From NCBI RefSeq assembly GCF_001263415.1, contig NZ_LGTE01000004.1, positions 1 through 64,000 of the forward strand: a stretch of 64,000 nucleotides of DNA. Reading direction: 5' to 3'. Every line of letters begins with the position of its first letter. Position 1 is the first letter of the stretch. Origin of the DNA: Thermincola ferriacetica. Lineage in GTDB: Bacteria > Bacillota > Thermincolia > Thermincolales > Thermincolaceae. Of this stretch, positions 4,397-64,000 are shown in pieces. The notes beneath the pieces are model-generated. The model was not told the origin of the DNA. It was given only the letters and a program-made list of their open reading frames with translations, and made no database searches. The position numbers and the translations under genes are program-made.

Positions 4397-4614
4397 CAGC
4401 CGACAGCCCCCTTTCTTTTATTGGTGTTTACGCAGTTTATCAGGTCTGACAGCGGCAGGAACATTTTGGCGGGTAGCGGCAACAGATCAGAAGCATCGAG
4501 CAGTTCTGTCACGGTTACCCTCTCCCGCACAAGCCGGTCCCTGATGTACTGCTTTGTTTCCTCGCCTGAGTGCGTATAGACGTACAGCAGGCGGGTCAGT
4601 TTTGGTTTATCCAT
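4396..4614 (-). CDS. small protein of unknown function, first gene of the leftmost operon
   Basis: 72 residues, ATG after AAAGGAGGGACAAAAAC. It is the first gene downstream of the promoter and two terminators at 4645-4893, so its expression needs readthrough of both. The sequence is helical and charged with no recognised motif. The downstream zinc-ribbon gene overlaps its stop codon. Confidence 0.75.
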   Translation of the reverse strand: MDKPKLTRLLYVYTHSGEETKQYIRDRLVRERVTVTELLDASDLLPLPAKMFLPLSDLINCVNTNKRKGAVG

Positions 4615-4644
4615 GTTTTTGTCCCTCCTTTGGTTTTGTTTGTA

Positions 4645-4679
4645 AAATTAAAAAGGACAGCGCTTTTAACACTGTCCCT
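4645..4679 (-). terminator. second leader terminator of the 4.8-kb cassette
   Basis: AGGACAG and CTGTCCT pair, then TTTTTAATTTT on the minus strand. It lies between the shared attenuator and the first gene, so this operon carries two terminators in its leader. Confidence 0.7.
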
Positions 4680-4735
4680 TTTGTTTTCCCCTTGAGATTA
4701 TTGAGTTTTTGGGCCCAAGCGGGCTAAAAATATAA

Positions 4736-4783
4736 AAAGGGGCACGCATCGGTTTTCTTAAAAAACGCAATACGTACCCCTTT
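4736..4783 (-). terminator. shared leader terminator (attenuator), ACGTATTGCG type
   Basis: On the minus strand AAAGGGGTACGTATTG pairs with CGATGCGTGCCCCTTT over about 16 bp with a few G-U pairs, closed by an inner GTTTT/AAAAC stem and followed by a T-rich run. Almost the same hairpin recurs at 18887, 29400 and 31567, and a sister type at 10268, 14028 and 29906. Confidence 0.8.
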
Positions 4784-4863
4784 GGTTGTGAATATAAAAC
4801 TTTCCCATGGTCGGGTGAAAAAGAAAACTTCAAGACAAACAACAAAACTTATGTTACATTTAT

Positions 4864-4893
4864 AGTTTACAGGTTTATGCCAGGTTTTGTCAA
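4864..4893 (-). promoter_or_regulatory. sigma-A promoter of the 4.6-0.1 kb operon
   Basis: TTGACA, 18 bases, TAAACT on the minus strand. Unlike the other cassettes it lacks the GACTTTGGTA palindrome, but the leader keeps the common TTGAAGTTTTC block before the attenuator. Confidence 0.55.
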
Positions 4894-4922
4894 GATGTTT
4901 GGCAGGCGGCTGGCCGGCCAAA

Positions 4923-4952
4923 CAAAAAAGAGGGGGTTATTTCCCCTCTTTT
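4923..4952 (-). terminator. terminator overlapping a stop codon
   Basis: AAAGAGGGG and CCCCCTCTTTT pair around AAATAA; the TAA in the loop is the stop codon of the 78-residue gene. A T-run follows on the minus strand. Confidence 0.75.
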
Positions 4953-5173
4953 GTTCTTCTCTTGTACTCCTGCCAGTACCGGCGGTTGTACTCCGGGTTT
5001 TCCCGCCGCCACAAGCTGAGATATTGGTTCTTTTGTTCCCTGCAGCTCCTGCAGGCAGCGTAAAACCTTCCGTCGGGCTTTATGTCCAGTTGGCCGCCAC
5101 ATTCAGGGCAAATGCCTTGCGCAATGCGCTGTCTGCGCCATTCGCGCATGTATCTGGATCTGCTTTTTGTCAA
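4937..5173 (-). CDS. small basic zinc-ribbon protein
   Basis: 78 residues, strongly basic and aromatic. CPEC and CRSC form one zinc ribbon; the C-terminal half (NPEYNRRYWQEYKRRTKEGK) is rich in Tyr and Arg and looks nucleic-acid binding, similar in style to small HNH-associated phage proteins but without the HNH histidines. The stop codon lies in the loop of the terminator that ends the operon. Function unknown. Confidence 0.75.
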   Translation of the reverse strand: MTKSRSRYMREWRRQRIAQGICPECGGQLDIKPDGRFYAACRSCREQKNQYLSLWRRENPEYNRRYWQEYKRRTKEGK

Positions 5174-5192
5174 TGTTTTTCTGCTCCTTTCT

Positions 5193-5543
5193 TTATTTCT
5201 TTATTTCTTCGCTGATTTTTTCGCTGCGCCTTCTTTTTTCACCGCACCTGCACTTCCCGCAGGCATCCCGGAGCCTCGGTACCAGCACGCAGCCCAACTG
5301 CTCGACATAGCCGAAATAGTCGTTTCCTGTCCGGCACATTATGCAGCCATCTTCGTCCTCGAAAATATGAACATTGATTCCGACAATGTATTCTTCGCCC
5401 GGCCTGTCAAATTGGGTTACGGCGTAATTTGCAACGGCGAATTCAGCCAACAGCATGTCCTTTTCCGATAGTCCCGCCATTTTGCACCATTTGGCGAAAA
5501 TATCTTCACCTATGAATTCATTGATTCGCCTTGGCACACTCAT
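5193..5543 (-). CDS. protein of unknown function with Cys-rich tail
   Basis: 116 residues, ATG overlapping the upstream stop (ATGA) and preceded by AAAAAAGGGGG. Residues 50-90 contain IVGINVHIFEDEDG and a cysteine (CIMC). The C terminus has CGKCRCG followed by a lysine-rich tail. Metal binding is plausible. No family recognised. Confidence 0.75.
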   Translation of the reverse strand: MSVPRRINEFIGEDIFAKWCKMAGLSEKDMLLAEFAVANYAVTQFDRPGEEYIVGINVHIFEDEDGCIMCRTGNDYFGYVEQLGCVLVPRLRDACGKCRCGEKRRRSEKISEEIKK

Positions 5544-5737
5544 TCTTGGATTCCCCCTTTTTTAAACAGTTTTTTCAATCCCCGCAGCAGCGCCCGGCAG
5601 TAATCCGCGTTGCAGGGGAATCTCCCGGCATGGGATGATATATAGCGCTGCAGGGCGTTATAGGTCACCCCTCTGTTTTTGCGGCGGAGTACCACGTTTT
5701 TTAAAGCCCGGCGCTGTTGTAACCGGAGTGTGTTCAT
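5540..5737 (-). CDS. small highly basic protein
   Basis: 65 residues with very many Arg and Lys (MNTLRLQQRRALKNVVLRRK at the start, KLFKKGG near the end). ATG after GGAGGGACGAAAAG. The composition suggests nucleic-acid binding. It overlaps the next gene by 4 bases. No family recognised. Confidence 0.75.
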   Translation of the reverse strand: MNTLRLQQRRALKNVVLRRKNRGVTYNALQRYISSHAGRFPCNADYCRALLRGLKKLFKKGGIQE

Positions 5738-9811: not shown

Positions 9812-10198
9812 CTAAAGATTTACCCGCAGCACCAGGCTCCCGTTCGGCGCGTACTGCTGGGATTCCGGGCGATAGTGTTTGGCTACCGCCTGGGCTACTT
9901 TCTGCTGCAGCAGCACGCCGCCCAGTTGTTTGACGAACTGGGTCAGGTCCTGCAGCAGCGTTTCCGTCTCCGTTGCAGCCAGGCCCTGGGCATAGACCCT
10001 GCCGTTGCTGATCTGCACGGCCCGGTAGCCGCCCAGGTCAAACTCCAGCAGGTCCCTGCGCCGGGACATGGTTACGACATACCCTTTCTGTCGGAGGTAC
10101 TGTAGCACCGCCTGGGCCGCCTTCTCGCTTTCCAGGACTTCTTTGGTGAGGTTCTCGCTCACCTTTGCGGTGAGCGTTGCCACTGCATCACATGGCAT
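9812..10198 (-). CDS. unknown protein, first gene of the 10-kb cassette operon
   Basis: 128 residues. ATG preceded by AAAAAAAGGGGGAATGACAA, the same ribosome block as at 29835. The protein has two alpha/beta halves: FDLGGYRAVQISNGRVYAQG in the middle and a C-terminal helix-strand VAKHYRPESQQYAPNGSLVL. By neighbourhood it could be a DUF1257 (Ycf35)-type partner of the AAA+ ATPase, but the sequence alone does not show this. Expression depends on readthrough of the attenuator at 10268. Confidence 0.75.
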   Translation of the reverse strand: MPCDAVATLTAKVSENLTKEVLESEKAAQAVLQYLRQKGYVVTMSRRRDLLEFDLGGYRAVQISNGRVYAQGLAATETETLLQDLTQFVKQLGGVLLQQKVAQAVAKHYRPESQQYAPNGSLVLRVNL

Positions 10199-10216
10199 TT
10201 GTCATTCCCCCTTTTT

Positions 10217-10300
10217 TTATATTTTGTAAAATATACAGCCTGCCAGTAGTTCCCGGCAGGCAAAATAAAAAGGGGTATGCAGCACTTTATAAAGTGACAT
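10217..10300 (-). CDS. possible 27-codon leader peptide across the attenuator
   Basis: ATG lies in the 5' arm of the terminator stem, after an AAAGGGG that can act as ribosome site. The frame (MSLYKVLHTPFYFACR...) passes through the whole hairpin and stops just before the ribosome site of the first gene. The same 27-codon frame occurs at 29854 with two changed residues. Translation would open the terminator. Coding is not proven. Confidence 0.4.
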   Translation of the reverse strand: MSLYKVLHTPFYFACRELLAGCIFYKI

Positions 10301-10312
10301 ACATACCCCTTT
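10268..10312 (-). terminator. shared leader terminator (attenuator), CACTTTATAAAGTG type
   Basis: Minus strand: AAAGGGGTATG pairs with CATACCCCTTT, with an inner CACTTTATAAAGTG palindrome and a following TTATTTT. Two more dyads follow before the gene: GCCTGCC/GGCAGGC (10238-10261) and the palindrome TATATTTTGTAAAATATA (10218-10235). Confidence 0.85.
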
Positions 10313-10387
10313 GAGTCTTGTTTTAATAAAACCTGGTCCCCCGCGCTGTGCGGGAAACAAAAGAGAAAACTTCACAAAACGCAAAAA

Positions 10388-10434
10388 GACTTTGGTACAG
10401 GTATATTATACCAGATACCGAAGTCTTTTGTAAA
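10388..10434 (-). promoter_or_regulatory. cassette promoter with palindromic operator
   Basis: TTTACA, 18 bases, TATAAT on the minus strand; the -35 box abuts the stop of the 83-residue gene. The promoter lies inside a dyad, GACTTTGGTA ... TACCGAAGTC, centred on GGTATAATATACC. This arrangement fits a repressor operator. Confidence 0.8.
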
Positions 10435-13790: not shown

Positions 13791-13961
13791 TTACGGCGTT
13801 TTCAGTTCAAACGCCGTTTCGATGTAATCTTCGCTGTCCAGGACTATTTCACCGCTGTGATACTTTTCTTCAATTATTTCAAGGGCTTCTTCTTCCGACT
13901 CTGCTTCAACGCTTACGTTTCTCGCCAGTCTTTCGCGCACACAAACGGTGTATTTTGGCAT
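13791..13961 (-). CDS. DpnD/PcfM-like protein
   Basis: 56 residues, too short for usual gene finding but with a GGAGGGATAACAA ribosome site. The pattern KYTVCVRERLARNVSVEAES, EEEALEII, HSGEIVLDSEDYIE is typical of the DpnD/PcfM family, named after a protein on the conjugative plasmid pCF10. Role unknown. It is the first gene behind the cassette at 14.1 kb. Confidence 0.85.
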   Translation of the reverse strand: MPKYTVCVRERLARNVSVEAESEEEALEIIEEKYHSGEIVLDSEDYIETAFELKTP

Positions 13962-13964
13962 TTG

Positions 13965-14060
13965 TTATCCCTCCTTTTTTATATTTTTTAAATATACAGC
14001 CTGCCAGTGTCCCCGGCAGGCAAAATAAAAAGGGATATGCAGCACTTTATAAAGCGACAT
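13965..14060 (-). CDS. possible leader peptide of the 14.1-kb cassette
   Basis: Starts MSLYKVLHIPFYFACR, the same opening as the leader frames at 10217 and 29854, but the frame then differs and stops three bases before the PcfM-like start codon. It crosses the attenuator. Coding is not proven. Confidence 0.35.
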   Translation of the reverse strand: MSLYKVLHIPFYFACRGHWQAVYLKNIKKEG

Positions 14061-14072
14061 ACATACCCCTTT
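14028..14072 (-). terminator. shared leader terminator (attenuator), CACTTTATAAAGTG type
   Basis: Same hairpin as at 10268 with one mismatch in the outer stem (AAAGGGGTATG against CATATCCCTTT on the minus strand) and a TTATTTT tail. A CTGCC/GGCAG dyad and the palindrome-like TATATTTAAAAAATATA follow. Confidence 0.8.
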
Positions 14073-14148
14073 GAATCTTGATTTAATAAAACCTGGTTCC
14101 CCCGCGCTGTGTGGGAAACAAAAGTGAAAACTTCAAGTAAAATAAAAA

Positions 14149-14195
14149 GACTTTGGTACAGGTATATTATACCAGATGCCAAAGTCTTTTGTAAA
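14149..14195 (-). promoter_or_regulatory. cassette promoter with palindromic operator
   Basis: TTTACA, 18 bases, TATAAT. Dyad GACTTTGGCA ... TACCAAAGTC around GGTATAATATACC, one mismatch from the perfect copy at 30030. Confidence 0.8.
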
Positions 14196-18842: not shown

Positions 18843-18876
18843 AACCCCACCGGAACGATTGTTCGCTCCTGATGGG
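18843..18876 (-). terminator. second leader terminator before ssb
   Basis: CCCCATC and GGTGGGG close an inner GGAGCGAAC/GATCGTTCC-like dyad, followed by TTTTTATAT on the minus strand. A further GC-rich dyad (GCGCTCACCCG with CGGGTGAGAGCGC) lies at about 18745-18774. Confidence 0.65.
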
Positions 18877-18886
18877 GATAAAATAA

Positions 18887-18934
18887 AAAGGGGCACGCAT
18901 TGGTTTTCTTAAAAAACGCAATACGTACCCCTTT
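18887..18934 (-). terminator. shared leader terminator (attenuator), ACGTATTGCG type
   Basis: Minus strand AAAGGGGTACGTATTG pairs with CAATGCGTGCCCCTTT, inner GTTTT/AAAAC, then a T-rich tail. Same as at 29400 and close to 4736 and 31567. Confidence 0.85.
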
Positions 18935-19031
18935 AACTCTGTTTTTAAATAAACTTGGTTTCTCCGCGATCATGCGGGGAAACAAAAGAAGGAAAACTTT
19001 GTAAAACACATAAAGACTTTGGTACAGATAT

Positions 19032-19061
19032 ATTATACCAAACACCTATATCTTTTGTAAA
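19032..19061 (-). promoter_or_regulatory. cassette promoter of ssb operon
   Basis: TTTACA, 18 bases, TATAAT, lying within the last codons of the upstream 493-residue gene. One arm of the usual dyad is kept (TACCAAAGTC on the minus strand); the other has diverged. Confidence 0.75.
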
Positions 19062-28636: not shown

Positions 28637-29370
28637 GCCTGCTCACCCCCTTTCAACCAGCGAAGGCGGTAGGAGCCGTCCTTCGCCTTTATAATTTTTG
28701 CGCGGGCGGGGTGAACCTCAAACCCCCGCCCCTGTTTCCCTGCCAGGACGGTAAATCCCTTGTCGTCCTCAGACAGTACGTCAAGGACGAAGCAACCGTC
28801 CACAACCGCCAGCCCGCGCCGCCAGACGCGGGAAAACCATTGCAGCGGCACGGCAGCGCTGACATAACTGTCCGTACCGGGCCATTTGCCATTGTGGCTC
28901 CAAACCCTGCTGCTGGAACCGCTAATGACAGGGTCCCCGATGCGGACGCAAACCTCATGGTTCCCGCCCGCCCAGGATGTTCGGCTGCGGCGGTAGGAAC
29001 AGGTTTCCAGCGCCTTCCCAGCCAGCCTTGCCACCCGCGCGGCGGCGCGGGTAGCGAACGGGACCGACAACGGGTCAGCCTTAGCGTTCCGCCGGCGACG
29101 GGCCGCGGCTTTTTCCCGCCCGGCGTCAAACGCTGGCCGCAACCCGGCGGGCAGGTCCCGCCGGTAAAACGGGAGTTTTACGCCCCGCCTCCAGGTCTCC
29201 AGGACCTTGAGGCAGCGGCAGGGCTCGCCGCCCAGGGCCTCGAAGGCCCTGTCGGCTTTTATGTCCGGGTGGTCGTGGAGCACGACCGCCCCGGACGGGG
29301 TAATACTGATGGTGTGCAGTGCGCCTTCACAGCGCACGCGCACCGAAACAACCGGTTTCTTTTTTGTCAT
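28633..29370 (-). CDS. unknown protein upstream of the MoxR/VWA pair
   Basis: 245 residues from the ATG after AAAGGGGGAACAAAAAA; an earlier in-frame Met at 29409 lies inside the terminator hairpin and has no ribosome site. Starts MTKKKPVVSVRVRCEGALHT; very basic in the middle (FDAGREKAAARRRRNAK). A C-terminal strand-rich part includes DGCFVLDVLSEDDKGFTVL. No family recognised. It shares the high GC and coupling of the two downstream genes, so it is probably part of the same machine. Confidence 0.8.
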   Translation of the reverse strand: MTKKKPVVSVRVRCEGALHTISITPSGAVVLHDHPDIKADRAFEALGGEPCRCLKVLETWRRGVKLPFYRRDLPAGLRPAFDAGREKAAARRRRNAKADPLSVPFATRAAARVARLAGKALETCSYRRSRTSWAGGNHEVCVRIGDPVISGSSSRVWSHNGKWPGTDSYVSAAVPLQWFSRVWRRGLAVVDGCFVLDVLSEDDKGFTVLAGKQGRGFEVHPARAKIIKAKDGSYRLRWLKGGEQA

Positions 29371-29399
29371 TTTTTTGTTCCCCCTTTTGTGAAAAATAA

Positions 29400-29447
29400 A
29401 AAGGGGCACGCATTGGTTTTCTTAAAAAACGCAATACGTACCCCTTT
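29400..29447 (-). terminator. shared terminator (ACGTATTGCG type) between two genes
   Basis: Same long hairpin as at 18887, here not behind a promoter but between the 124-residue gene and the 245-residue gene. It would separate the first gene from the MoxR/VWA genes. Confidence 0.85.
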
Positions 29448-29460
29448 TCCGCCCCGAGGG

Positions 29461-29835
29461 TCAGTCCTCAAGGGCATCGGCCACCGTGGCAAGGCTGCGG
29501 CAGCCGATAATTTTTCCCTGCTCGTCCCTGACGGTGTCGTTTGGAACGAGCAGGTCCCGCCTGTGACGGGCGGCCTGAGCCACAGCGAGGGACACGATAT
29601 AGAACGTGCCCTCCTCCGGGTCGGGCAGGTTTTCTACCCGACCCAGGGACTTGCGGATTACAGGTATCCGCAAGTCCCCTATAAAAATTTCTCCGATCTG
29701 CTCGGAGGTCTCCGAGCAGCGGGGAAGTTTTTCGGCGGCGGAGGGTATCTCCACCGCCGCCCCGTCCTCCCGCACCAAAGTTACCGGGTGCGGGGTTAAG
29801 TTAATTATTTTTTTGATTTCCATATGCTTCGGCAT
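29461..29835 (-). CDS. conserved phage/plasmid protein of unknown function
   Basis: 124 residues. The pattern INLTPHPVTLVREDGAAVEI, then LRIPVIRKSLGRVENLPDPE, TFYIVSLAVAQAA and IIGCRSL is that of a small family I recall from Firmicute and actinobacterial phages (NLTPHDV... VVAPD... VV), with no known function. ATG (or the Met at position 5) after AAAAAAAGGGGGAATGACAA. First gene behind the 30-kb cassette. Confidence 0.85.
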   Translation of the reverse strand: MPKHMEIKKIINLTPHPVTLVREDGAAVEIPSAAEKLPRCSETSEQIGEIFIGDLRIPVIRKSLGRVENLPDPEEGTFYIVSLAVAQAARHRRDLLVPNDTVRDEQGKIIGCRSLATVADALED

Positions 29836-29853
29836 TTGTCATTCCCCCTTTTT

Positions 29854-29937
29854 TTATATTTTGTAAAATATACAGCCTGCCGTTGGTTCCCGGCAGGCAA
29901 AATAAAAAGGGGTATGCAGCACTTTATAAAGTGACAT
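29854..29937 (-). CDS. possible 27-codon leader peptide across the attenuator
   Basis: Same length and almost the same sequence as the frame at 10217 (MSLYKVLHTPFYFACR start; two differences after that). It crosses the terminator and stops at the TAA just before the ribosome site of the first gene. Coding is not proven. Confidence 0.4.
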   Translation of the reverse strand: MSLYKVLHTPFYFACREPTAGCIFYKI

Positions 29938-29949
29938 ACATACCCCTTT
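29906..29949 (-). terminator. shared leader terminator (attenuator), CACTTTATAAAGTG type
   Basis: Outer stem AAAGGGGTATG/CATACCCCTTT and inner CACTTTATAAAGTG on the minus strand, then TTATTTT. The GCCTGCC/GGCAGGC dyad and TATATTTTACAAAATATA palindrome follow as at 10.2 kb. Confidence 0.85.
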
Positions 29950-30029
29950 AACTCTGTTTTGAAAACCTGGTCTCCCGCATAATGTGTTAACACGGGAAAC
30001 AAAAGTGAAAACTTCAAACAAAACAAAAA

Positions 30030-30076
30030 GACTTTGGTACAGGTATATTATACCAGATACCAAAGTCTTTTGTAAA
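30030..30076 (-). promoter_or_regulatory. cassette promoter with perfect palindromic operator
   Basis: TTTACA, 18 bases, TATAAT. GACTTTGGTA and TACCAAAGTC are exact inverted arms around GGTATAATATACC. The best copy of the cassette operator. Confidence 0.85.
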
Positions 30077-30105
30077 GGTTTTTTTGCTGCAGGGGATACT
30101 GTGAT

Positions 30106-30162
30106 GCCTCCACCAGAAAGCCAGCCCTGGACAAAAACCACGGTTAACTTTCTGGTGGAGGC
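30106..30162. repeat. 15-bp perfect inverted repeat touching the tmRNA 3' end
   Basis: GCCTCCACCAGAAAG at 30106-30120 and its exact complement at 30148-30162, 27 bases apart. One arm contains the CCTCCACCA 3' end of the tmRNA. Confidence 0.9.
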
Positions 30163-30481
30163 GGGGGGAGTCGAACCCCCGTCCGGAAAACAACCTGCAC
30201 AGGCATCTCCGAGCGCAGCCCGGTGTTTTGGCTTCGCAGGCACAGCCGCCCTGACCGGCAGGCTGCCGTGCCGCTATCCCGACGAATCTCGCCCAGCCCC
30301 TCCGGGAACCGGGGCGGGCCAGCCCTGTACAATGACCCCCGTATCCCTCACCCAGGGCGCAGAGGGCCGGAAGATACAAAAAAATTAAACAGCGCCTGTA
30401 AATCCACCGTTTTAACGGGCTGGTGGGACCCCGGCTCGCTTCCCGTGCCTGTTCATCCCCCGTCGAAACCTGTCCGCCCCC
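30153..30481 (-). ncRNA. ssrA: tmRNA gene with no recognisable tag
   Basis: 329 bases including the encoded CCA. The 5' end GGGGGCGGACAGGTTTCGACG and the 3' end GGGGGTTCGACTCCCCCC plus GCCTCCACCA form the alanine-type tRNA-like part: a 7-bp acceptor stem with G3-U70 and a normal T arm. CGAGCCGGGG and GTTAAAACGGTGG in the 5' half are also standard. After GGTGG, however, only ATTTACAGGCGCTGTTTAA remains where 30-45 bases of AANDNYALAA-type tag should be. Either the tag is reduced to a few residues or a different frame (ALFNFF... to a TGA 45 bases on) is used. A tmRNA on a plasmid-like element is itself unusual. Confidence 0.85.
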
Positions 30482-30488
30482 ATAGAAT

Positions 30489-30514
30489 GAGCCCGGAGAT
30501 TACTCTCCGGGCTC
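30489..30514 (-). terminator. hairpin overlapping a stop codon, just before the tmRNA
   Basis: GAGCCCGGAGA and TCTCCGGGCTC pair; the TAA of the 147-residue gene lies at the loop. No T-run follows. It may be a processing or termination signal 8 bases before the tmRNA 5' end. Confidence 0.6.
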
Positions 30515-30943
30515 TGCTACGACACAGTTTTCCACACCTGTGTCGTACCCACATACCGGGCAAATTGCGCCCGGTATGCTCTCCAGTCTGGTCCCGCATA
30601 TGTGGACCAGACTGTTTTTTCCCTGGGAGCAGTCCTCGGGCTGTTCCCAATAAAGAACAACCCCGAGGACTCTGGCCGCCTCTGCAAGGGCGGCCACCAC
30701 CCAGGCGGTCACGACCGGATTGGCCGTGGCCAAGCATCTGTCCGTTTCATCCAGACAGATGCTTAATTCGCCCCGGCGATAAACCGGGACGTCATTTTCA
30801 TCTGCCTGGTTAGGCAGATGATCTAACATCAATCTTCCCCTTTCGGGGAAGATTTTTTCTAACGCCGCCCATGCCAGGGCATGGGCCGCTTCGAGATCAT
30901 CGACCTTGGACAGGTCGATAACCTCACTTAATCTTTTTTTCAT
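30500..30943 (-). CDS. unknown protein with C-terminal zinc-ribbon-like cysteines
   Basis: 147 residues from the ATG after GGCGGGGAAATT, starting MKKRLSEVIDLSKVDDLEAA. The middle part is helical (TANPVVTAWVVAALAEAARV). Near the end HICGTR and AICPVCGYDTG give four possible metal ligands. No family recognised. The stop lies at the hairpin before the tmRNA. Confidence 0.75.
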   Translation of the reverse strand: MKKRLSEVIDLSKVDDLEAAHALAWAALEKIFPERGRLMLDHLPNQADENDVPVYRRGELSICLDETDRCLATANPVVTAWVVAALAEAARVLGVVLYWEQPEDCSQGKNSLVHICGTRLESIPGAICPVCGYDTGVENCVVAEPGE

Positions 30944-31101
30944 AATTTCCCCGCCTGCGTCAGACACAGACGGGGTTTCACCCCCTTTTGTTTTTTATTT
31001 TCACCCCCACCCCACGTACCGGGTGAGGGGTTAGCCTCCTGCACCCCTGGAAACAGCACTGAAACAGGTTCAATCCTGTTCCCAGGGCTTTTCCGAAAAA
31101 A

Positions 31102-31134
31102 ATTTTAACACCCGCCGGGCCGGACCGGCGGGTG
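31102..31134 (-). terminator. terminator after the 97-residue gene
   Basis: CACCCGCCGG and CCGGCGGGTG pair and are followed by TTAAAATTTTTTT on the minus strand. The 31,135-30,944 region beyond it holds further dyads (for example AACAGG/CCTGTT) but no gene. Confidence 0.75.
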
Positions 31135-31138
31135 ATTT

Positions 31139-31432
31139 TTATTTTTTATCTACATACCACCGCCTGAGACGGTGGTATTCTTTTTCTGGGACAAAAACCA
31201 GTCCCAGAATTTCATTCTTTTCAATCCTCCACCCGGAGTGGCACTCGTTGCCGCACTCACAGGTGGTTGAAAAACTCTCTTCTCCGAATGCGGCACTGCC
31301 GCAATCGGAGATTGTTATTATTCCACCCTCTTCTTCGAGGGTGGAGTAAAATTCCTCTACTGAGTTTTCTACATCATCGTAGACTAAGTAGTCTACGATG
31401 ATAAATCCATTCTTTCTTCTTATTGCAAACAT
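31139..31432 (-). CDS. small protein of unknown function
   Basis: 97 residues, ATG after GGGGGGAGGGAAAAC. Opens MFAIRRKNGFIIVDYLVYDD; a Cys-containing centre (STTCECGNECHSGW) may bind a metal; the end HRLRRWYVDKK is basic. First gene behind the 31.7-kb cassette. No family recognised. Confidence 0.75.
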   Translation of the reverse strand: MFAIRRKNGFIIVDYLVYDDVENSVEEFYSTLEEEGGIITISDCGSAAFGEESFSTTCECGNECHSGWRIEKNEILGLVFVPEKEYHRLRRWYVDKK

Positions 31433-31566
31433 GTTTTCCCTCCCCCCTCACACTGAGTAGGGAGGGTCCACCTCCTTTTTTGTTTTTTTTATTCCTCCAC
31501 CGTTCCGGCTCCGGTGGAGGTCTTCCTGCACCCGCCGAACATCCGTTCCCCGGCGGGCGTGAAATA

Positions 31567-31613
31567 AAAAGGGGTACGCACTGGTTTTCTTAAAAAACGC
31601 AATACGTACCCCT
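31567..31613 (-). terminator. shared leader terminator (attenuator), ACGTATTGCG type
   Basis: Same hairpin as at 4736 and 18887, with GGGGTACG/CGTACCCC fully paired. GC-rich dyads at about 31494-31560 (CCTCCACCG/CGGTGGAGG and GCCCGCCGG/CGGCGGGTGC) follow before the gene. Confidence 0.85.
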
Positions 31614-31738
31614 TGAACTCTTTTTTAAAAAACTTGCTTTTCCACCCTCAAGGGGGGAAAAGGAAAAATCAAAAACTTACATTCCTACCACCCCAAAAGG
31701 TGGCAGAAAAGACTAGAAAAAAACTTTAATCTGATTAC

Positions 31739-31768
31739 ATTTTACCAGATTACCAAAGTTTTTGTAAA
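31739..31768 (-). promoter_or_regulatory. cassette promoter, diverged operator
   Basis: TTTACA, 18 bases, TAAAAT on the minus strand. The dyad is AACTTT(G)...AATCTG with CAGATT...AAAGTT, different from the GACTTTGGTA copies but in the same place. Confidence 0.7.
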
Positions 31769-48030: not shown

Positions 48031-49062
48031 TCAGACTGCTAATTTCCAGGAAAATCCTGTTGACCTGGCCAGCAGCCTTGCTTTTCTCGGACTGAAATGC
48101 CCGATCCTTTTTCCATCGGCATCAGCTATGCCCAGTACCTTCGATATATCCGTCGGCAGGCCGCACACCCAACCCCGATAGGTCTTTCCGGCTTTCTCCG
48201 CTTCCACCCAGTCGCCTTTGCGGAAAAATCCGCCGTTGGCGGTGCCGCCAAAGCGCGGTCTAATGCCGCCCTTTTGCGGGTTCTGCCGGTGCAGGCTCCG
48301 CCTGGCGTATTGAAGTCTCCGCCAGACATAGAAAGGCGCGTCGGCGTTTTGACAGCCCGTTACCCCAATCAGCATTGCCACGGCGTCGTTGGCGTGGGTC
48401 GCAGGTACCTGCTCCCACTTTTTGTCGGTCTGTTTTTGCAGGCCGAATTTCTCCCGCCAGGCGTCGGTGTCGGCTACCTCCACCAGCTTCAGGACGGCCA
48501 GCTTCCGGTATTCCCGGTACGTTAACGTTTTGCCGATCTCGACGGTGGAGAAGTATTTCCCGTCCCTGAAACGGTAGTGGTTGTACCGCACGTCCTCGGT
48601 GACGATCAGCCGAACAGGGTATACCATGCATAACTCACGGACTACCTTGAGCCGGGTTTCCACCTTCGACCTCTGCGTGGGAGCCAGCCAGTACCCGTCC
48701 CTTTTCCGATTGTCGAACCGGGCCGGACGACGCGGTGTGTTGCGGTACCGTCGCGCACGGCGCAGGTTCCGCCTGGCATCCATCTTTTTCGGCACGTCGT
48801 CCGGAAGAAATGCCATCGCGCGTATCTCCACCTGCCGGTGCGATGCTACGGCCACTCCGTCGTATTTCGCGCCGGGGTCCACAGCCAGGGACAGCGGCTG
48901 GATTTCTTCTCCTACCGGCCTGGTCATCTGGATATAAAACAGCCCCAGCTTATTTCTCCTGGGCTTTGCCAGGCCGTCTTTTATCAGCAGCCTGGCCTTC
49001 CTTGGAGTGGTGGGCATGAGCGGCTTGCCGTCCACGCCCACCACCGGTACTCTTTTGAACAT
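48031..49062 (-). CDS. isrB: IsrB-type RuvC nuclease (no HNH domain)
   Basis: 343 residues, ATG after AAAGGAGGCGGAGTATCCGCG. N-terminal PLMP motif (KPLMPTTPRKARLLI), RuvC-I LAVDPGAKYDGVAV (D62), arginine-rich bridge helix (MDARRNLRRARRYRNTPRR), RuvC-II LIVTEDVRY (E156), and RuvC-III ATHANDAVAMLIG (D226). There is no HNH insertion, which separates IsrB from IscB. Known IsrBs are RNA-guided nickases. Residues look intact. The last codons may extend into host DNA. Confidence 0.9.
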   Translation of the reverse strand: MFKRVPVVGVDGKPLMPTTPRKARLLIKDGLAKPRRNKLGLFYIQMTRPVGEEIQPLSLAVDPGAKYDGVAVASHRQVEIRAMAFLPDDVPKKMDARRNLRRARRYRNTPRRPARFDNRKRDGYWLAPTQRSKVETRLKVVRELCMVYPVRLIVTEDVRYNHYRFRDGKYFSTVEIGKTLTYREYRKLAVLKLVEVADTDAWREKFGLQKQTDKKWEQVPATHANDAVAMLIGVTGCQNADAPFYVWRRLQYARRSLHRQNPQKGGIRPRFGGTANGGFFRKGDWVEAEKAGKTYRGWVCGLPTDISKVLGIADADGKRIGHFSPRKARLLARSTGFSWKLAV

Positions 49063-54219: not shown

Positions 54220-54918
54220 CTAATACCATTGGCTTTTATCGTTTACTGGCTCGATCTTGTGCTTAAAACTGGTCCACTGCTGGAAAAATTCTTCGACTTC
54301 CGGAGTTATTTCTTTTACAAGTATTTCTATATGTGGCTGAATATGGTGTGTTTCGGAACAGCAAACGATGTATTTTTCGTAAAAATAACTGTCGTCATAT
54401 AACACAAGCCCTCGCAGGCCGTTATTGGCAAACTTGATCATGTAGTTGTCATGGTCCCGTTCTACTGAATTGGGATAGCATGTTTTTACTATCAGGGCCG
54501 CCTTTTCGATGGGCCTGAACTCGCTGCCATAGATCTCCCTGAGTTTTTCAACTGCCTTTTCGGCAGCTTCCTGGAATGTTGTCTGCCAGACTTCCCGCAG
54601 CGCCCTGTGAACCTTGTCACGCACAAACGGATTCGCTTTCCAGATTGGGGGCGGGGTTTCCCATATTACTATCTGTACGGCTATTGGCTGTTCGGCGGAC
54701 ACCGCCACATCATATGGCAGAACCGCGCTGTCATATGGACTGAAGTCGGGGTCCCGCATGGCATGCTGGTACTTGTCAGCCAGCTTATAAAGATGAGCCA
54801 TGGCAGTGCTTATGTTTTCCAATGCGCTGTTTATATTCTCGGCCAGCTCCTTTTCAAGAAATTCCTGCCTTTTGTACATGCGATACATCTGCCTGTCTGC
54901 ATGTCTTTTCAAATACAT
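54220..54918 (-). CDS. protein of unknown function, cut off from its ribosome site by IscB element
   Basis: 232 residues starting MYLKRHADRQMYRMYKRQEF. No ribosome site lies upstream, because the IscB element begins there; GAGGAGG stands on the far side of the element, 12 bases after the parR-like gene. Helical N terminus, then WETPPPIWKANPFVRDKVHR and a mixed C-terminal half. No family recognised. Translation may now depend on the iscB stop (TGATG overlap). Confidence 0.7.
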   Translation of the reverse strand: MYLKRHADRQMYRMYKRQEFLEKELAENINSALENISTAMAHLYKLADKYQHAMRDPDFSPYDSAVLPYDVAVSAEQPIAVQIVIWETPPPIWKANPFVRDKVHRALREVWQTTFQEAAEKAVEKLREIYGSEFRPIEKAALIVKTCYPNSVERDHDNYMIKFANNGLRGLVLYDDSYFYEKYIVCCSETHHIQPHIEILVKEITPEVEEFFQQWTSFKHKIEPVNDKSQWY

Positions 54919-56342
54919 CACAGAAAAGCCGCAGGAAGCCCACGGGCTTCAGCCGTGGGAGGAATGCGGCCTTTCTGTTTCCCTCCTCTCTGCGCAATTT
55001 TTTGTTTCTCGTACTGCCAGCCGTCATTGCGCTGGACTATACGCATGTATTTCCAGGATACTCCCTGACAGATTCTTCTGCCTGACCCGTCTTTTATGTC
55101 GAAATACCCGGATGAACGGACAGCCACGCGGCCTGTCCAGCGACCGGTATATTTGCCTTTTGGAATCTCGGCCACAACCAGGTCTCCGGTCTGGAAGCCA
55201 AAATGAAATTTCCCTCTGCTGCGGTGACCGACCGGAAAACCGTATCTGTCTGTGTTGCACATCTTCCGGGTACCCCGGCCTTTGGCAGACCAGACCTGGG
55301 CATATTCCTGCCCGATTATGATTTCGTCGGGCGTACTCCCGCCAACACAGCAGGCGTCAAAACAGTGGGTCCTGGGCAGGCCCGTCCTGAGACGGTTGTA
55401 TTTGGTACGCGCTCCGGTGCCGCACTCCACCGGTAAGCCGGTTCCTTTGAGCCGGTCGTACAGCGCCCACCGGGTCGCGTTCATCAGGGCTGCGTCCCGC
55501 AACGGTTCTTTCAACTGCGTCAGCACCTTCTCCAAATTCGCTGCCCGTACCGCGTCAATTTGGCGTTTGGATTGTTTCAGCTCCTCCAGCCAATCTCCCG
55601 GCTGAAGATTGCCCTTGGCTTTGTTACATGCCTCGCACGCCAGCGTTAAATTACTGACGCGGTCAGTGCCTTTCGGCCCATATTTCGGGTTCCGGGGTAC
55701 GACATGGTCCACCTCCAGAGGTACGCCTTCTTTACCGCAGTAGGCGCATCTCCTGCCCCATTTCTCCAGCAGGTATTCCTTTACTTCGTAGCCAAACAAT
55801 TCCCCCTGCTGGTACTCGACACCTGATATTTCAGGGTCCTGCAGCTTCTGAGTGTCGAATTTAAACAACGCGACAGATATGGCTGTTATTGGTGCAAGTT
55901 TCAGCAGCTTGTTAACTGCATTGGCTGTCAGTTCCACCCTTGCCTGCAATGACGGCGGCAGCCAGCCTTCCGGCCTTCTTCTGTTGTCAAACCTGGGCTT
56001 GCGGTAGCGGGTCCTGCGGTTCCGGCGGCTGCGCCGTAAATTGCGCCGGTTGTCCAGGCTCTGCTTTATCCCCGGCTTGTGGTGTATCTCGCACAGAAAC
56101 ACGGCCTCGGACTTCCGGGAATCAACCTCTCGCAATACGGCTATGCCGCTCGCTTTTGCACCTGGTTTCAACTTTAACCTCAATGGCTGCAGCTCACTTT
56201 CTTCCACCACCCGGTCTTTTAGCCGGATTGTGAAGGGAGCCATACGGTGGACTACCGCCCTGCCCCTTTTGAGCAGCAGCCTTGCACGCTTCTCGGTGCA
56301 GAGCATTAGCGGTTTCTTGTGCTTGTCCAACACAAATACCAT
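54918..56342 (-). CDS. iscB: IscB-type nuclease, RuvC motifs I/II mutated, HNH intact
   Basis: 474 residues, ATG after AAAAGGAGGAGAG. PLMP motif (KKPLMLCTEKRARLLL), bridge helix (NRRNLRRSRRNRRTRYRKPR), HNH domain with CAYCG, EVDHVVPR (H213) and LTLACEACNKAKGN. RuvC-I reads LKLKPGAKASGIAVL: the usual DPG aspartate is K59. RuvC-II reads ISVALFKFD: the usual Glu is A158. RuvC-III keeps CFDACC (D329). So it should cut only through HNH, as a one-strand nickase. The long C-terminal part is of normal IscB type. Confidence 0.92.
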   Translation of the reverse strand: MVFVLDKHKKPLMLCTEKRARLLLKRGRAVVHRMAPFTIRLKDRVVEESELQPLRLKLKPGAKASGIAVLREVDSRKSEAVFLCEIHHKPGIKQSLDNRRNLRRSRRNRRTRYRKPRFDNRRRPEGWLPPSLQARVELTANAVNKLLKLAPITAISVALFKFDTQKLQDPEISGVEYQQGELFGYEVKEYLLEKWGRRCAYCGKEGVPLEVDHVVPRNPKYGPKGTDRVSNLTLACEACNKAKGNLQPGDWLEELKQSKRQIDAVRAANLEKVLTQLKEPLRDAALMNATRWALYDRLKGTGLPVECGTGARTKYNRLRTGLPRTHCFDACCVGGSTPDEIIIGQEYAQVWSAKGRGTRKMCNTDRYGFPVGHRSRGKFHFGFQTGDLVVAEIPKGKYTGRWTGRVAVRSSGYFDIKDGSGRRICQGVSWKYMRIVQRNDGWQYEKQKIAQRGGKQKGRIPPTAEARGLPAAFL

Positions 56343-56605
56343 CCATCTCTCCTCCTTTTGGAGTGCCCTTACGGGCCTGGTTACGCGCCTTACCGGCGTC
56401 TCTCCTCGCCTATGTTATCCCGGCTTCCTATGCCCGGCACACTGGCTGTTACCCGACAGGCCTGTTTAATGCCGGACGACAGGGCCTGGGGCTGGAGAAG
56501 CACCCCAGGGTGTCATGACCGGAATAACGTAGCGCATAAAGCGCTCAGGCTGGTCATAGCCGGGCTTGTGCTTGACACAAGCCCACGGCTTTAGCCGTGG
56601 GTACT
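54925..56605 (-). mobile_element. IscB-carrying IS200/605-like element without tnpA
   Basis: Left-end hairpin CCCACGGCTAAAGCCGTGGG at about 56580 and right-end hairpin CCCACGGCTGAAGCCCGTGGG at about 54930-54955. It is inserted between the GAGGAGG ribosome site that follows the parR-like stop and the coding region at 54918. Ends are to within about 10 bases. Confidence 0.7.
56343..56605 (-). ncRNA. predicted omega RNA of IscB
   Basis: About 260 bases from the left end to iscB, with several GC-rich hairpins (GGGCATAGGAAGCCGGG region, CGCCGGTAAGGCG) and no frame with a ribosome site. IscB guide RNAs are known to lie here. Confidence 0.6.
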
Positions 56606-56616
56606 ATGACCTCCTC

Positions 56617-61396: not shown

Positions 61397-64000
61397 CTAA
61401 TATGCGTTGATTTTCCTGGCTACTGCCAGCTTGTCTATGTTTTTGTGTTCGCGGATCAGTCCTATTGCTTCATAGGCAACTACCGCCGTTTCCGCGCGGG
61501 TAATGTTCCTGCCCGGGCGGTACAGGCCGTCGGGGTACCCTTTCACAATACCTGCGGTGGTTAATGCCTTAATCGAGTTTTCGGCCCAGTCAGGCAGTTT
61601 GTCGGCGAACGATACGGTACCGGTTAACTGCGACAGGTCCTGCCCGGTAATGTACAGGTATTTTGCCATTATCACTGCCATCTCCGCCCTGGTAATGGTT
61701 TTGGACGCCTGGAAGGTATTGTCCTCATAGCCTACCACCAAACCTAACTGTTTGGCCACTTGAATCTTGTCTTTTGCCCAGCCCGGTATCTGGTCGGCAT
61801 CATCAAATTTGCCGGTGTCCGGCAGGTCCTCCGGTATATCCAATGCGTTCATCAGGGTTACCACAAACTCGGCGCGGGTGATGTTCCGGTCGGGAAAGAA
61901 TTGGTTGTTGTACCCTTTCATCAGCCCCAACTGCTCCACTGCGGCTATTTCTCTCACAGCCCAGTGGTGTACTGCGTCGGTGAAGCTTGGCCCTTTGGCC
62001 GGGTCTACTACTGTGTTGCTGATAGTGCCGGTTAATGTGACAACAGTTGTTTGGGGCTGTTCTGTACTTGTCGGGCTGGTGGTGCCCGGACTGCTGCTGG
62101 AACCGCCGGAACTGGCTGAGGTGGTGCTGATATTTATGGTGTAATTGAATGCCTGCGTTGCGCTTGTGTTGCCCATAGCATCAATACCGTAAACATACAG
62201 GGTTACGGTGTTATTGATACTCACCGGTTCTGTATAAACTGTCCAGTTGGTGCTATCGAAGCTGTAGTATATCGTCGCCGGTTCATTGGCTGTCAAATAA
62301 ACTGTTTGAGCCGTCGTGTATGTCCCCGGTGCCGGAGCTGCGGTAATGGTAGGTGCAACGGTATCTATTACATAATTCTGTGCTTCTACCGCCGAAGCAT
62401 TACCAGCACTGTCAACGGCATAATATTTCAAGGTAGTGGTTGTGTCAATCGTTATGGGCTCACTGTATACAATACCGGAAACAGTCGGGTCAGAGCCGTC
62501 CGTTGTGTAATATACCGTTGCCGGTTCATCTGTGGTAAATGTTACAACCTGCGGCTCCCTAAAGGTTCCGCCTATAACGGAAGGTGTCACTGCTGGCGGA
62601 GTGGTGTCGGGCTGAGCCAGCGTAAACATATAAATATCACTGGTCCAGTTGACAGTATCTCGCCAATCTTCCCATACAATTCTATTACCATGAATAGCTA
62701 CGTGATCAGGATAACTCTCTGGGTTAGTGGTTATTTGAGTTTTAACTCCGGTTGTCAGGTCGTACATATAAACATATGAGCCATTATCTTCTATATATGC
62801 AATTTTATCTTCATAAATGACAGGTTTCTCCTGGTTTAACGGATCAGTTATAAGAGGGGTTTCCGTTCCTGTGCTTATGTCGTACATGTAAATATCCTGG
62901 GTGCCGTTGCGCTCATCTGACCACACTATTTTGTTCCCATAAATTATGGGGTGATACTGGTATGCCAAATTGTTGGTAATTTGAGTTTCATTATCGGTAC
63001 TCAGGTCGTACATGTAGATGTCAAAGTTGCCGTTGCGGTCATCTATCCATACTATTTTGTTATCATAGATAGCAGGTTCATATTGATTGGCTGTATTGGT
63101 GGTTATCCGGGTTTCTGTACCGGTACTCAGATCGTACATGTAGATGTCGTTAGTGCCGTTGCGGTCATCTTGGTAAACTATTTTATCGCCGTAAATAGCA
63201 GGGATACTTTGATTAAACGGATCATTAGTTATCTGGGTTTCGGTGCCGGTACTCAGGTCGTGCATGTAAATGTCGTTGTTCCCGTTGCGGTCGTCCTGGT
63301 AAACTATTTTGTCCCCGTAAATGGCAGGATTTGTTTGGTTTGCCGGGTCAGTTGTTATCCGGGTTTCTGTACCGGTACTCAGGTCGTACATGTAGATGTC
63401 GCCGTTTCCGTTGCGATTGTCCTCATATACAATTCTATCACCGTAAATGGCAGGTTTTCCTTGATCTGCCGGGTCGGTTGTTATTCGGGTTTCGGTGCCA
63501 TCTGCCTGCACAGGTGGAATATACATATAGATGTCAAGGTTACCGTTGCGGTCATCTACCCATGCTATTTTATCGCCCAAAATTATCGGACTGCCTTGGT
63601 TTGCCAAATCATTTGTTATCTGGTTTTCCCTGCCAGTGTTCAGGTCGTACATATAGATGTCGGCGTTGCCGTTGCGCCAATCTTCCCATACAATTTTATC
63701 GAAATAAATGTTGCAGTAATATTGTTCTGCAGAATTGACGGCAATCGGAACCTCTCTGTCCATAGTCAAATCATACATGTAAATGTCAGCAGTGCCACCA
63801 CGGTAATCAACCCACACTATTTTGTCATTATAAATATTGACAGGACCACTTTGATTGGATGGGTCAAAAGTAATTTGAGTTTCATTACCGGTGCCCAGGT
63901 CGTACATGTAGATGTCAAAGTTGCCGTTGCGGTCATCCACCCATGCTATTTTGTTATCATAGATAGCAGGTTCATATTGCCCGGCTGTATTGGTGGTTAT
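61397..64000 (-). CDS. secreted beta-propeller protein with SLH domains, partial
   Basis: The frame is open to the window edge, so the N terminus is missing; about 867 residues are present. Tandem TolB-like blades of about 43 residues (DIYMYDLSTGTETQITND, NPAIYGDKIVYQDDRNG) fill residues 1-450, then two chitobiase-like domains (VTFTTDEPATVYYTTDGSDP; YLTANEPATIYYSFDST), a Ser/Thr linker and three SLH repeats (FTDAVHHWAVREIAAVEQLG; WAKDKIQVAKQLGLVVGYED; FADKLPDWAENSIKALTTAG). A surface-bound protein, perhaps for binding polymers. Confidence 0.92.
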   Translation of the reverse strand: MTTNTAGQYEPAIYDNKIAWVDDRNGNFDIYMYDLGTGNETQITFDPSNQSGPVNIYNDKIVWVDYRGGTADIYMYDLTMDREVPIAVNSAEQYYCNIYFDKIVWEDWRNGNADIYMYDLNTGRENQITNDLANQGSPIILGDKIAWVDDRNGNLDIYMYIPPVQADGTETRITTDPADQGKPAIYGDRIVYEDNRNGNGDIYMYDLSTGTETRITTDPANQTNPAIYGDKIVYQDDRNGNNDIYMHDLSTGTETQITNDPFNQSIPAIYGDKIVYQDDRNGTNDIYMYDLSTGTETRITTNTANQYEPAIYDNKIVWIDDRNGNFDIYMYDLSTDNETQITNNLAYQYHPIIYGNKIVWSDERNGTQDIYMYDISTGTETPLITDPLNQEKPVIYEDKIAYIEDNGSYVYMYDLTTGVKTQITTNPESYPDHVAIHGNRIVWEDWRDTVNWTSDIYMFTLAQPDTTPPAVTPSVIGGTFREPQVVTFTTDEPATVYYTTDGSDPTVSGIVYSEPITIDTTTTLKYYAVDSAGNASAVEAQNYVIDTVAPTITAAPAPGTYTTAQTVYLTANEPATIYYSFDSTNWTVYTEPVSINNTVTLYVYGIDAMGNTSATQAFNYTINISTTSASSGGSSSSPGTTSPTSTEQPQTTVVTLTGTISNTVVDPAKGPSFTDAVHHWAVREIAAVEQLGLMKGYNNQFFPDRNITRAEFVVTLMNALDIPEDLPDTGKFDDADQIPGWAKDKIQVAKQLGLVVGYEDNTFQASKTITRAEMAVIMAKYLYITGQDLSQLTGTVSFADKLPDWAENSIKALTTAGIVKGYPDGLYRPGRNITRAETAVVAYEAIGLIREHKNIDKLAVARKINAY
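62880..64000. repeat. DNA repeats coding propeller blades
   Basis: Units of about 129 bases sharing GTCGTACATGTAGATGTC and TTGCCGTTGCGGTCATC-like blocks recur at least eight times up to the window edge. They code the beta-propeller and vary mainly at third positions. Confidence 0.75.

Follow-up and report, generated by a model that had tools for sequence, protein, structure and literature searches.

tmRNA both frees ribosomes and tags the unfinished protein for breakdown. In laboratory mutants these two functions have proved separable, and a natural RNA confined to rescue, if real, would represent their separation by evolution. This question is raised by a gene in the window (the whole 64,000-nt stretch of DNA that was analysed) which has the build of a tmRNA, lies among mobile-element genes and lacks a recognizable proteolysis tag.

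A covariance search against Rfam, which the original prediction had called for, returned a full-length match to RF00023 (144.9 bits, gathering threshold 47, E 7.5e-57) that spans positions 1–374 of the 374 in the model and is the sole tmRNA match in the window, confirming both position and strand (30481–30153, minus). The tRNA-like parts reported earlier as intact were all recovered: the acceptor GGGGGCG/CGCCUCC with G-U as its third pair, the T arm, GUUUCGACG and the CCA end, with the third G-U pair and CCA corresponding to alanyl-tRNA identity features. PK1–PK4 and the connector helix are present as well, 85 of 87 pairs being formed. ARAGORN made no call for this gene at settings that call all seven comparison tmRNAs, namely the chromosomal copy and six others, one of them from a Thermus plasmid. 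By its structure the gene is a tmRNA, namely a variant without a proteolysis tag that lacks both the canonical tag and helix 5 (Table 1).

Table 1. Features of the element-borne tmRNA gene and its surroundings, in window positions.
Feature	Position	Strand	Remarks	Basis
Second tmRNA (ssrA) gene	30153–30481	−	329 nt, full length	RF00023 match; paired-site comparison
Acceptor stem, 5′ strand	30475–30481	−	GGGGGCG; G3-U pair kept	Covariance match; pair comparison
T arm, acceptor 3′ strand and CCA	30153–30180	−	CGCCUCC; CCA encoded	Covariance match; alignment; pair comparison
Pseudoknot PK1	30404–30433	−	Knot unchanged, stem paired	Pair comparison with chromosomal copy
Shortened mRNA-like region	30367–30403	−	37 nt; helix 5 and ALAA codons absent	Sequence; alignment
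Candidate mini-tag	30385–30393	−	GCT GTT TAA (tmRNA Ala, then A, V, stop)	Alignment; A at −4
Alternative tag frame	30348–30395	−	GCG...TGA, giving ALFNFFVSSGPLRPG and stop; stop inside PK2	Sequence; UA at −5/−4
PK2, PK3 and PK4	30220–30366	−	All retained; compensatory changes	Pair comparison with chromosomal copy
25-nt inverted repeat	30106–30162	−	Acceptor 3′ strand and CCA pair with sequence just downstream; −41 kcal/mol as hairpin	
ORF of 147 aa (ORF147)	30500–30943	−	ATG at 30943; stop 18 nt before tmRNA; consecutive hairpins	Sequence; codon score; fold z
ORF of 97 aa (ORF97)	31139–31432	−	Upstream in presumed operon; also hairpin-built	Sequence; codon score
Promoter-like site and hairpin leader	31555–31768	−	TTTACA-18-TAAAAT; presumed driver of ORF97–ORF147–tmRNA	
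Next promoter and hairpin leader copy	29831–30076	−	Directly downstream of tmRNA; bounds operon	

Between PK1 and PK2 the gene holds ATTTACAGGCGCTGTTTAATTTTTTTGTATCTTCCGG, 37 nt compared with about 60 nt in the chromosomal ssrA of the host, and in the alignment helix 5, which surrounds the tag stop codon, is missing. The original prediction that this region has no ALAA-type ending was borne out: neither ARAGORN nor reading of the frames by hand produced an ALAA-type or hydrophobic AA-type tag end in any frame, the best being A+AV, and no standard tag had been overlooked in another frame. The T run was also considered as the place of a sequencing error that might explain the tag loss; this was rejected, since an ALAA end is not restored by any base change within the run.

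In E. coli, the frame is set by A86, four bases before the resume codon; changing A86 to a pyrimidine abolishes activity in a KanR assay, C or G is tolerated in place of U85, and the spacing from PK1 is not critical (PMC2481249). Two sites in the window tmRNA carry an A at −4: UA-CAG-GCG, which leads into ALFNFFVSSGPLRPG with its stop inside PK2, and CA-GGC-GCT, which leads into AV and a TAA stop. Both options of the earlier reading, a tag of a few residues and the GCG...TGA frame, thus agree with the published rule, and the choice between them stays one of preference. From sequence we prefer the A+AV mini-tag, without deciding. Its GCT GTT TAA lines up, in frame, with GCT GCT TAA, the ancestral tag end; the resume codon lies 7–9 nt from PK1 in the window tmRNA versus 11–15 nt in the relatives read. 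Neither candidate tag carries a standard degron. The earlier wording, "no degradation signal", is nevertheless too strong, because the -AV end could be a weak degron; the same end occurs on three phage tmRNA tags of the survey (L317 and L323 as ARAGORN calls them, L126 from a reading by hand).

Pairing was compared with the chromosomal copy over 87 base pairs in 14 helices and pseudoknots, a layout drawn by hand with both sequences in view and with one window sequence to compare: 66 pairs are unchanged, 7 are changed on one side and 11 on both, 1 is gained, and 2, both at helix ends, are broken. Eighteen of the 20 changed pairs still pair, 11 of them through changes on both sides, whereas a neutral simulation with an equal number of substituted sites kept 20% of the changed pairs and gave at most six two-sided changes in 20,000 runs. 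Only helix 5 and the tag have collapsed; helix 5 is fully diverged and every other helix is kept. A tree calculated without the tag region places the window copy among the host group, in a clade with support of 100/99; its branch measures 0.33 and that of the host copy 0.018, so much of the change occurred on the element's side; several of the two-sided differences are common to other species as well. Judged by these pairs, the window tmRNA is not simply decayed. As one part of the explanation that we favour tentatively as a whole, it would derive from an ssrA of the host's group, with the rest of the RNA having stayed under selection.

The proposed comparison with the chromosomal ssrA established that the window tmRNA is not the only one of the organism. 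The host genome (3.18 Mb, 78 contigs) carries a separate canonical copy (G000:C7:86273-86620, 219.9 bits, 348 nt) with the tag AEENYALAA called by ARAGORN. The two RNAs share the tRNA-like domain, the G-U acceptor pair, the T loop, PK1–PK4, the connector helix and the order of parts; the window copy differs in having neither tag frame nor helix 5, in its length (329 versus 348 nt) and in its location, a mobile element rather than the neighbourhood of smpB. The only smpB in the genome lies about 0.65 kb from the canonical ssrA (C7:87268-87690), with no second smpB on the element's contig or elsewhere in the genome. This host gene is the predicted source of SmpB for the window tmRNA.

The first 68 kb of the contig (C4, 156.5 kb) encode a RepA_N initiator, a T4SS coupling protein and a VirB11/TadA-type ATPase. 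Beyond these genes, the contig continues through a tRNA-Leu (C4:73559-73641) into chromosomal genes, including thrC, clpB and a dnaJ-like gene. The earlier description as a "plasmid-like element" was correct as to the mobile-element genes but needs amending for this continuity, which makes an integrated conjugative element probable, one that probably runs off the left end of the contig. Elsewhere in the window, a HEARO (omega) RNA (161.8 bits, 56395-56610, minus strand) lies beside a 474-aa ORF (54918-56342, minus strand), presumably a candidate IscB-type nuclease of that RNA; an RRXRR protein is encoded at 48031-49062, and tandem repeats of about 126 nt occur within the gene of an SLH-domain protein (62730-64000).

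The tmRNA stands in an operon-like arrangement with ORF97 and ORF147, as the last gene ahead of the leader at 30076. Five copies or part-copies of this leader, about 240 nt in length, are found on the minus strand in the first 32 kb of the window (10194-10434, 13954-14195, 18874-19061, 29831-30076 and 31555-31768); they combine a promoter-like site with several hairpins and stand upstream of minus-strand genes. Such an arrangement recalls the EGeRS1 leaders of establishment operons known from pLS20-family plasmids (PMC8708921). The likeness is judged by layout: in both, repeated leaders rich in inverted repeats precede several operons, but those of the window are shorter (about 240 versus 400–750 nt) and, unlike EGeRS1, hold a strong vegetative promoter-like site (TTTACA-18-TATAAT with an extended −10), in a promoter scan that is weak evidence, as it gives no promoter to the canonical ssrA either. 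A terminator possibly lies between ORF97 and ORF147, which would make the exact transcript uncertain. The tmRNA closes a presumed small operon under a repeated hairpin-rich leader, in a region that looks establishment-like, and on these grounds it is probably expressed while the element establishes in a new cell.

The neighbourhood is also unusually rich in hairpins. The 499 nt upstream of the tmRNA (30482-30980) fold with a z of −16.9, and the 2-kb bin around the tmRNA contains 13 perfect stems of at least 10 bp, versus 0–4 in other 2-kb stretches of the contig. Genes whose coding sequence is a chain of consecutive hairpins peak at 29250-31600 and extend more weakly over 1-33000, with the fold z per 200 nt falling to −12. 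These genes are still coding, in that only the expected frame scores as such, and barely so for the two ORFs adjoining the tmRNA. Plasmids of Paenibacillus and Geobacillus encode relatives of a neighbouring 124-aa protein, and a relative 42% identical, on the independent viral contig L273, is hairpin-dense over the same gene (4400-5600, z to −11). Counts of G-U versus A-C mismatches in the hairpins were too small to separate selection at the RNA level from selection at the DNA level. One idea, which we do not defend, is that the hairpins protect mRNA from single-strand-specific cleavage; the presence of a rescue RNA would be consistent with it. At the tmRNA 3′ end, the 25-nt inverted repeat may lock or punctuate the precursor, or delay its maturation.

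Our tentative reading is that an integrated conjugative element carries a genuine second tmRNA, which would have lost its tag frame and helix 5 while the rest was kept by selection, and which would rescue ribosomes with a minimal tag through host SmpB. The RNA, probably made while the element establishes in a new cell, would be charged with alanine, bind host SmpB and then enter stalled ribosomes. The resume codon would be set a few bases after PK1, and a near-immediate stop would allow the addition of roughly A-A-V, so that the ribosome is freed and the protein bears a minimal tag at most, in place of the ALAA degron. Most likely, it would work like an engineered minimal-tag tmRNA. In H. pylori, SsrA-STOP adds only Ala and Val and still supports growth, which its authors interpret as rescue following a single round of translation (PMC2584231); a two-codon tag is thus mechanistically sufficient there. 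Rescue without a standard degron is common to SsrA-STOP, which adds A+V, to SsrA-DD and, as proposed, to the window copy, but the former two are laboratory mutants and the latter is natural.

This minimal-tag reading is supported by the full-length covariance match with a canonical ssrA and a single smpB elsewhere, by the 18 of 20 changed pairs kept (20% under neutrality) on a long element-side branch, and by the alignment of GCT GTT TAA with the ancestral end, with A at −4, together with the SsrA-STOP precedent and the pLS20-like leaders. It is weakened by the single known copy, in which tag loss could be recent, by a PK1-to-resume distance shorter than that of relatives, by the U(−5)A(−4) that favours the longer ALFNFFVSSGPLRPG frame, and by the inverted repeat over the CCA end, which could hinder folding of the precursor. 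If true, it would provide a natural rescue-only tmRNA on a mobile element, coexisting with a normal copy; "rescue without proteolysis" would become testable in a natural setting, and ribosome rescue would be linked to plasmid establishment. In a fuller version that we consider unlikely, the tmRNA, natural and maintained with its tag cut to two codons, is an establishment gene that frees ribosomes on mRNAs damaged in the new host and spares the half-made proteins of the element, with neighbouring mRNAs formed of consecutive hairpins.

The gene might instead be decaying, as an ssrA acquired by the element that had its tag region deleted and is heading for a pseudogene. The loss of the tag ORF and helix 5, a canonical ssrA that makes this copy dispensable and the lack of a second occurrence in the searched genomes, plasmids, phages and viral contigs suit such a fate, which we rate as rather unlikely though by no means negligible, given the retained pairing with its 11 two-sided changes and the intact charging landmarks. 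In addition, the complete divergence of helix 5 beside otherwise kept helices indicates that the tag loss was not very recent, unless it came about in one replacement event. Rescue with a 16-residue tag devoid of a degron, A-ALFNFFVSSGPLRPG, appears improbable: translation would resume at GCG and the ribosome would have to open PK2 to reach the TGA. UACAG/GCG does show the U(−5)A(−4) signature of a resume site and GCG encodes Ala, the usual first residue, but the comparison tags of relatives end before PK2, the frame includes a U7 run, and the product has no likeness to the tags seen in the comparison.

A decoy or inhibitor competing for SmpB, alanyl-tRNA synthetase or stalled ribosomes, and so dampening host trans-translation, is quite improbable, even with the SmpB- and charging-relevant parts intact and a phage precedent at hand. 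The tmRNA of mycobacteriophage DS6A consists of hardly more than the tRNA-like domain, and a similar molecule is reported to inhibit tmRNA strongly (PMC4131195). The window copy resembles it as a mobile-element tmRNA without a tag and as a possible decoy, but retains possible resume sites and, unlike DS6A, a full body with all four pseudoknots, for which a decoy has no obvious need. A role at the DNA level is very improbable. tmRNA 3′ ends are common integrase attachment sites, and the gene could be a carried integration site: 33 nt of its 3′ end are identical to positions 168-200 of Moorella phage MCACPph1 (OR602863), which lie under an integrase annotation and are a probable attachment site in a host tmRNA gene, and the inverted repeat spans the tmRNA 3′ end. 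However, attachment requires the 3′ end only, yet the full length is structurally conserved, and no PF00589 tyrosine integrase was found on contig C4.

Other elements also carry an ssrA, namely Bifidobacterium pMP7017 and a plasmid of Thermus sp. NEB1569. Unlike the window copy, their tmRNAs encode normal tags, ANTVSSSRFTLAA in pMP7017 (PMC10832533) and ANKQLALAA, called by ARAGORN, in Thermus. The jakobid mitochondrial tmRNA likewise has no tag sequence but is organellar and also lacks pseudoknots (PMC3985003), which the window copy keeps. BLAST searches with the tmRNA revealed no close relative of the tagless gene in 399 genomes of the phylum and 4 of a neighbouring class, or in plasmids and phages, and pattern scans of viral contigs for a shortened PK1–PK2 distance also revealed none; a single copy is known within these collections. 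Among 90 distinct viral tmRNAs compared, the great majority have ordinary tags, most ending in AA, and a few phage tmRNAs have an -AV end or no recognizable tag. With ordinary tags in most viral and both plasmid tmRNAs examined, the window copy is an outlier. Four phage tmRNAs (L121, L125, L279 and L311) have tags without an AA-type end, called or read by hand (for example, ...VYVQ in L125 and ...EFAKL in L311), and are possible further tag-altered mobile tmRNAs.

A plasmid search with the chromosomal copy as query gave two partial matches only; one adjoins smpB, GatB/YqeY and other chromosomal-type genes and may be chromosomal DNA. The two tmRNAs of genome G012 were rejected as a parallel, both having ALAA-type tags, as were extra tmRNA-like matches in the relatives G003, G005 and G006, which are in fact ssrA genes interrupted in the T arm and 3′-end fragments. 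The interrupted genes lie at 4160-4744 of L038 (G006 C60) and 6917-7526 of L039 (G005 C37), with the 3′ end resuming about 240–260 nt later. In G006 the insert is covered by a weak group I intron match that stays under the threshold; this genome also has three further tmRNA-like matches below the cut-off and, downstream, shorter pieces of the 3′ end, as integrations leave.
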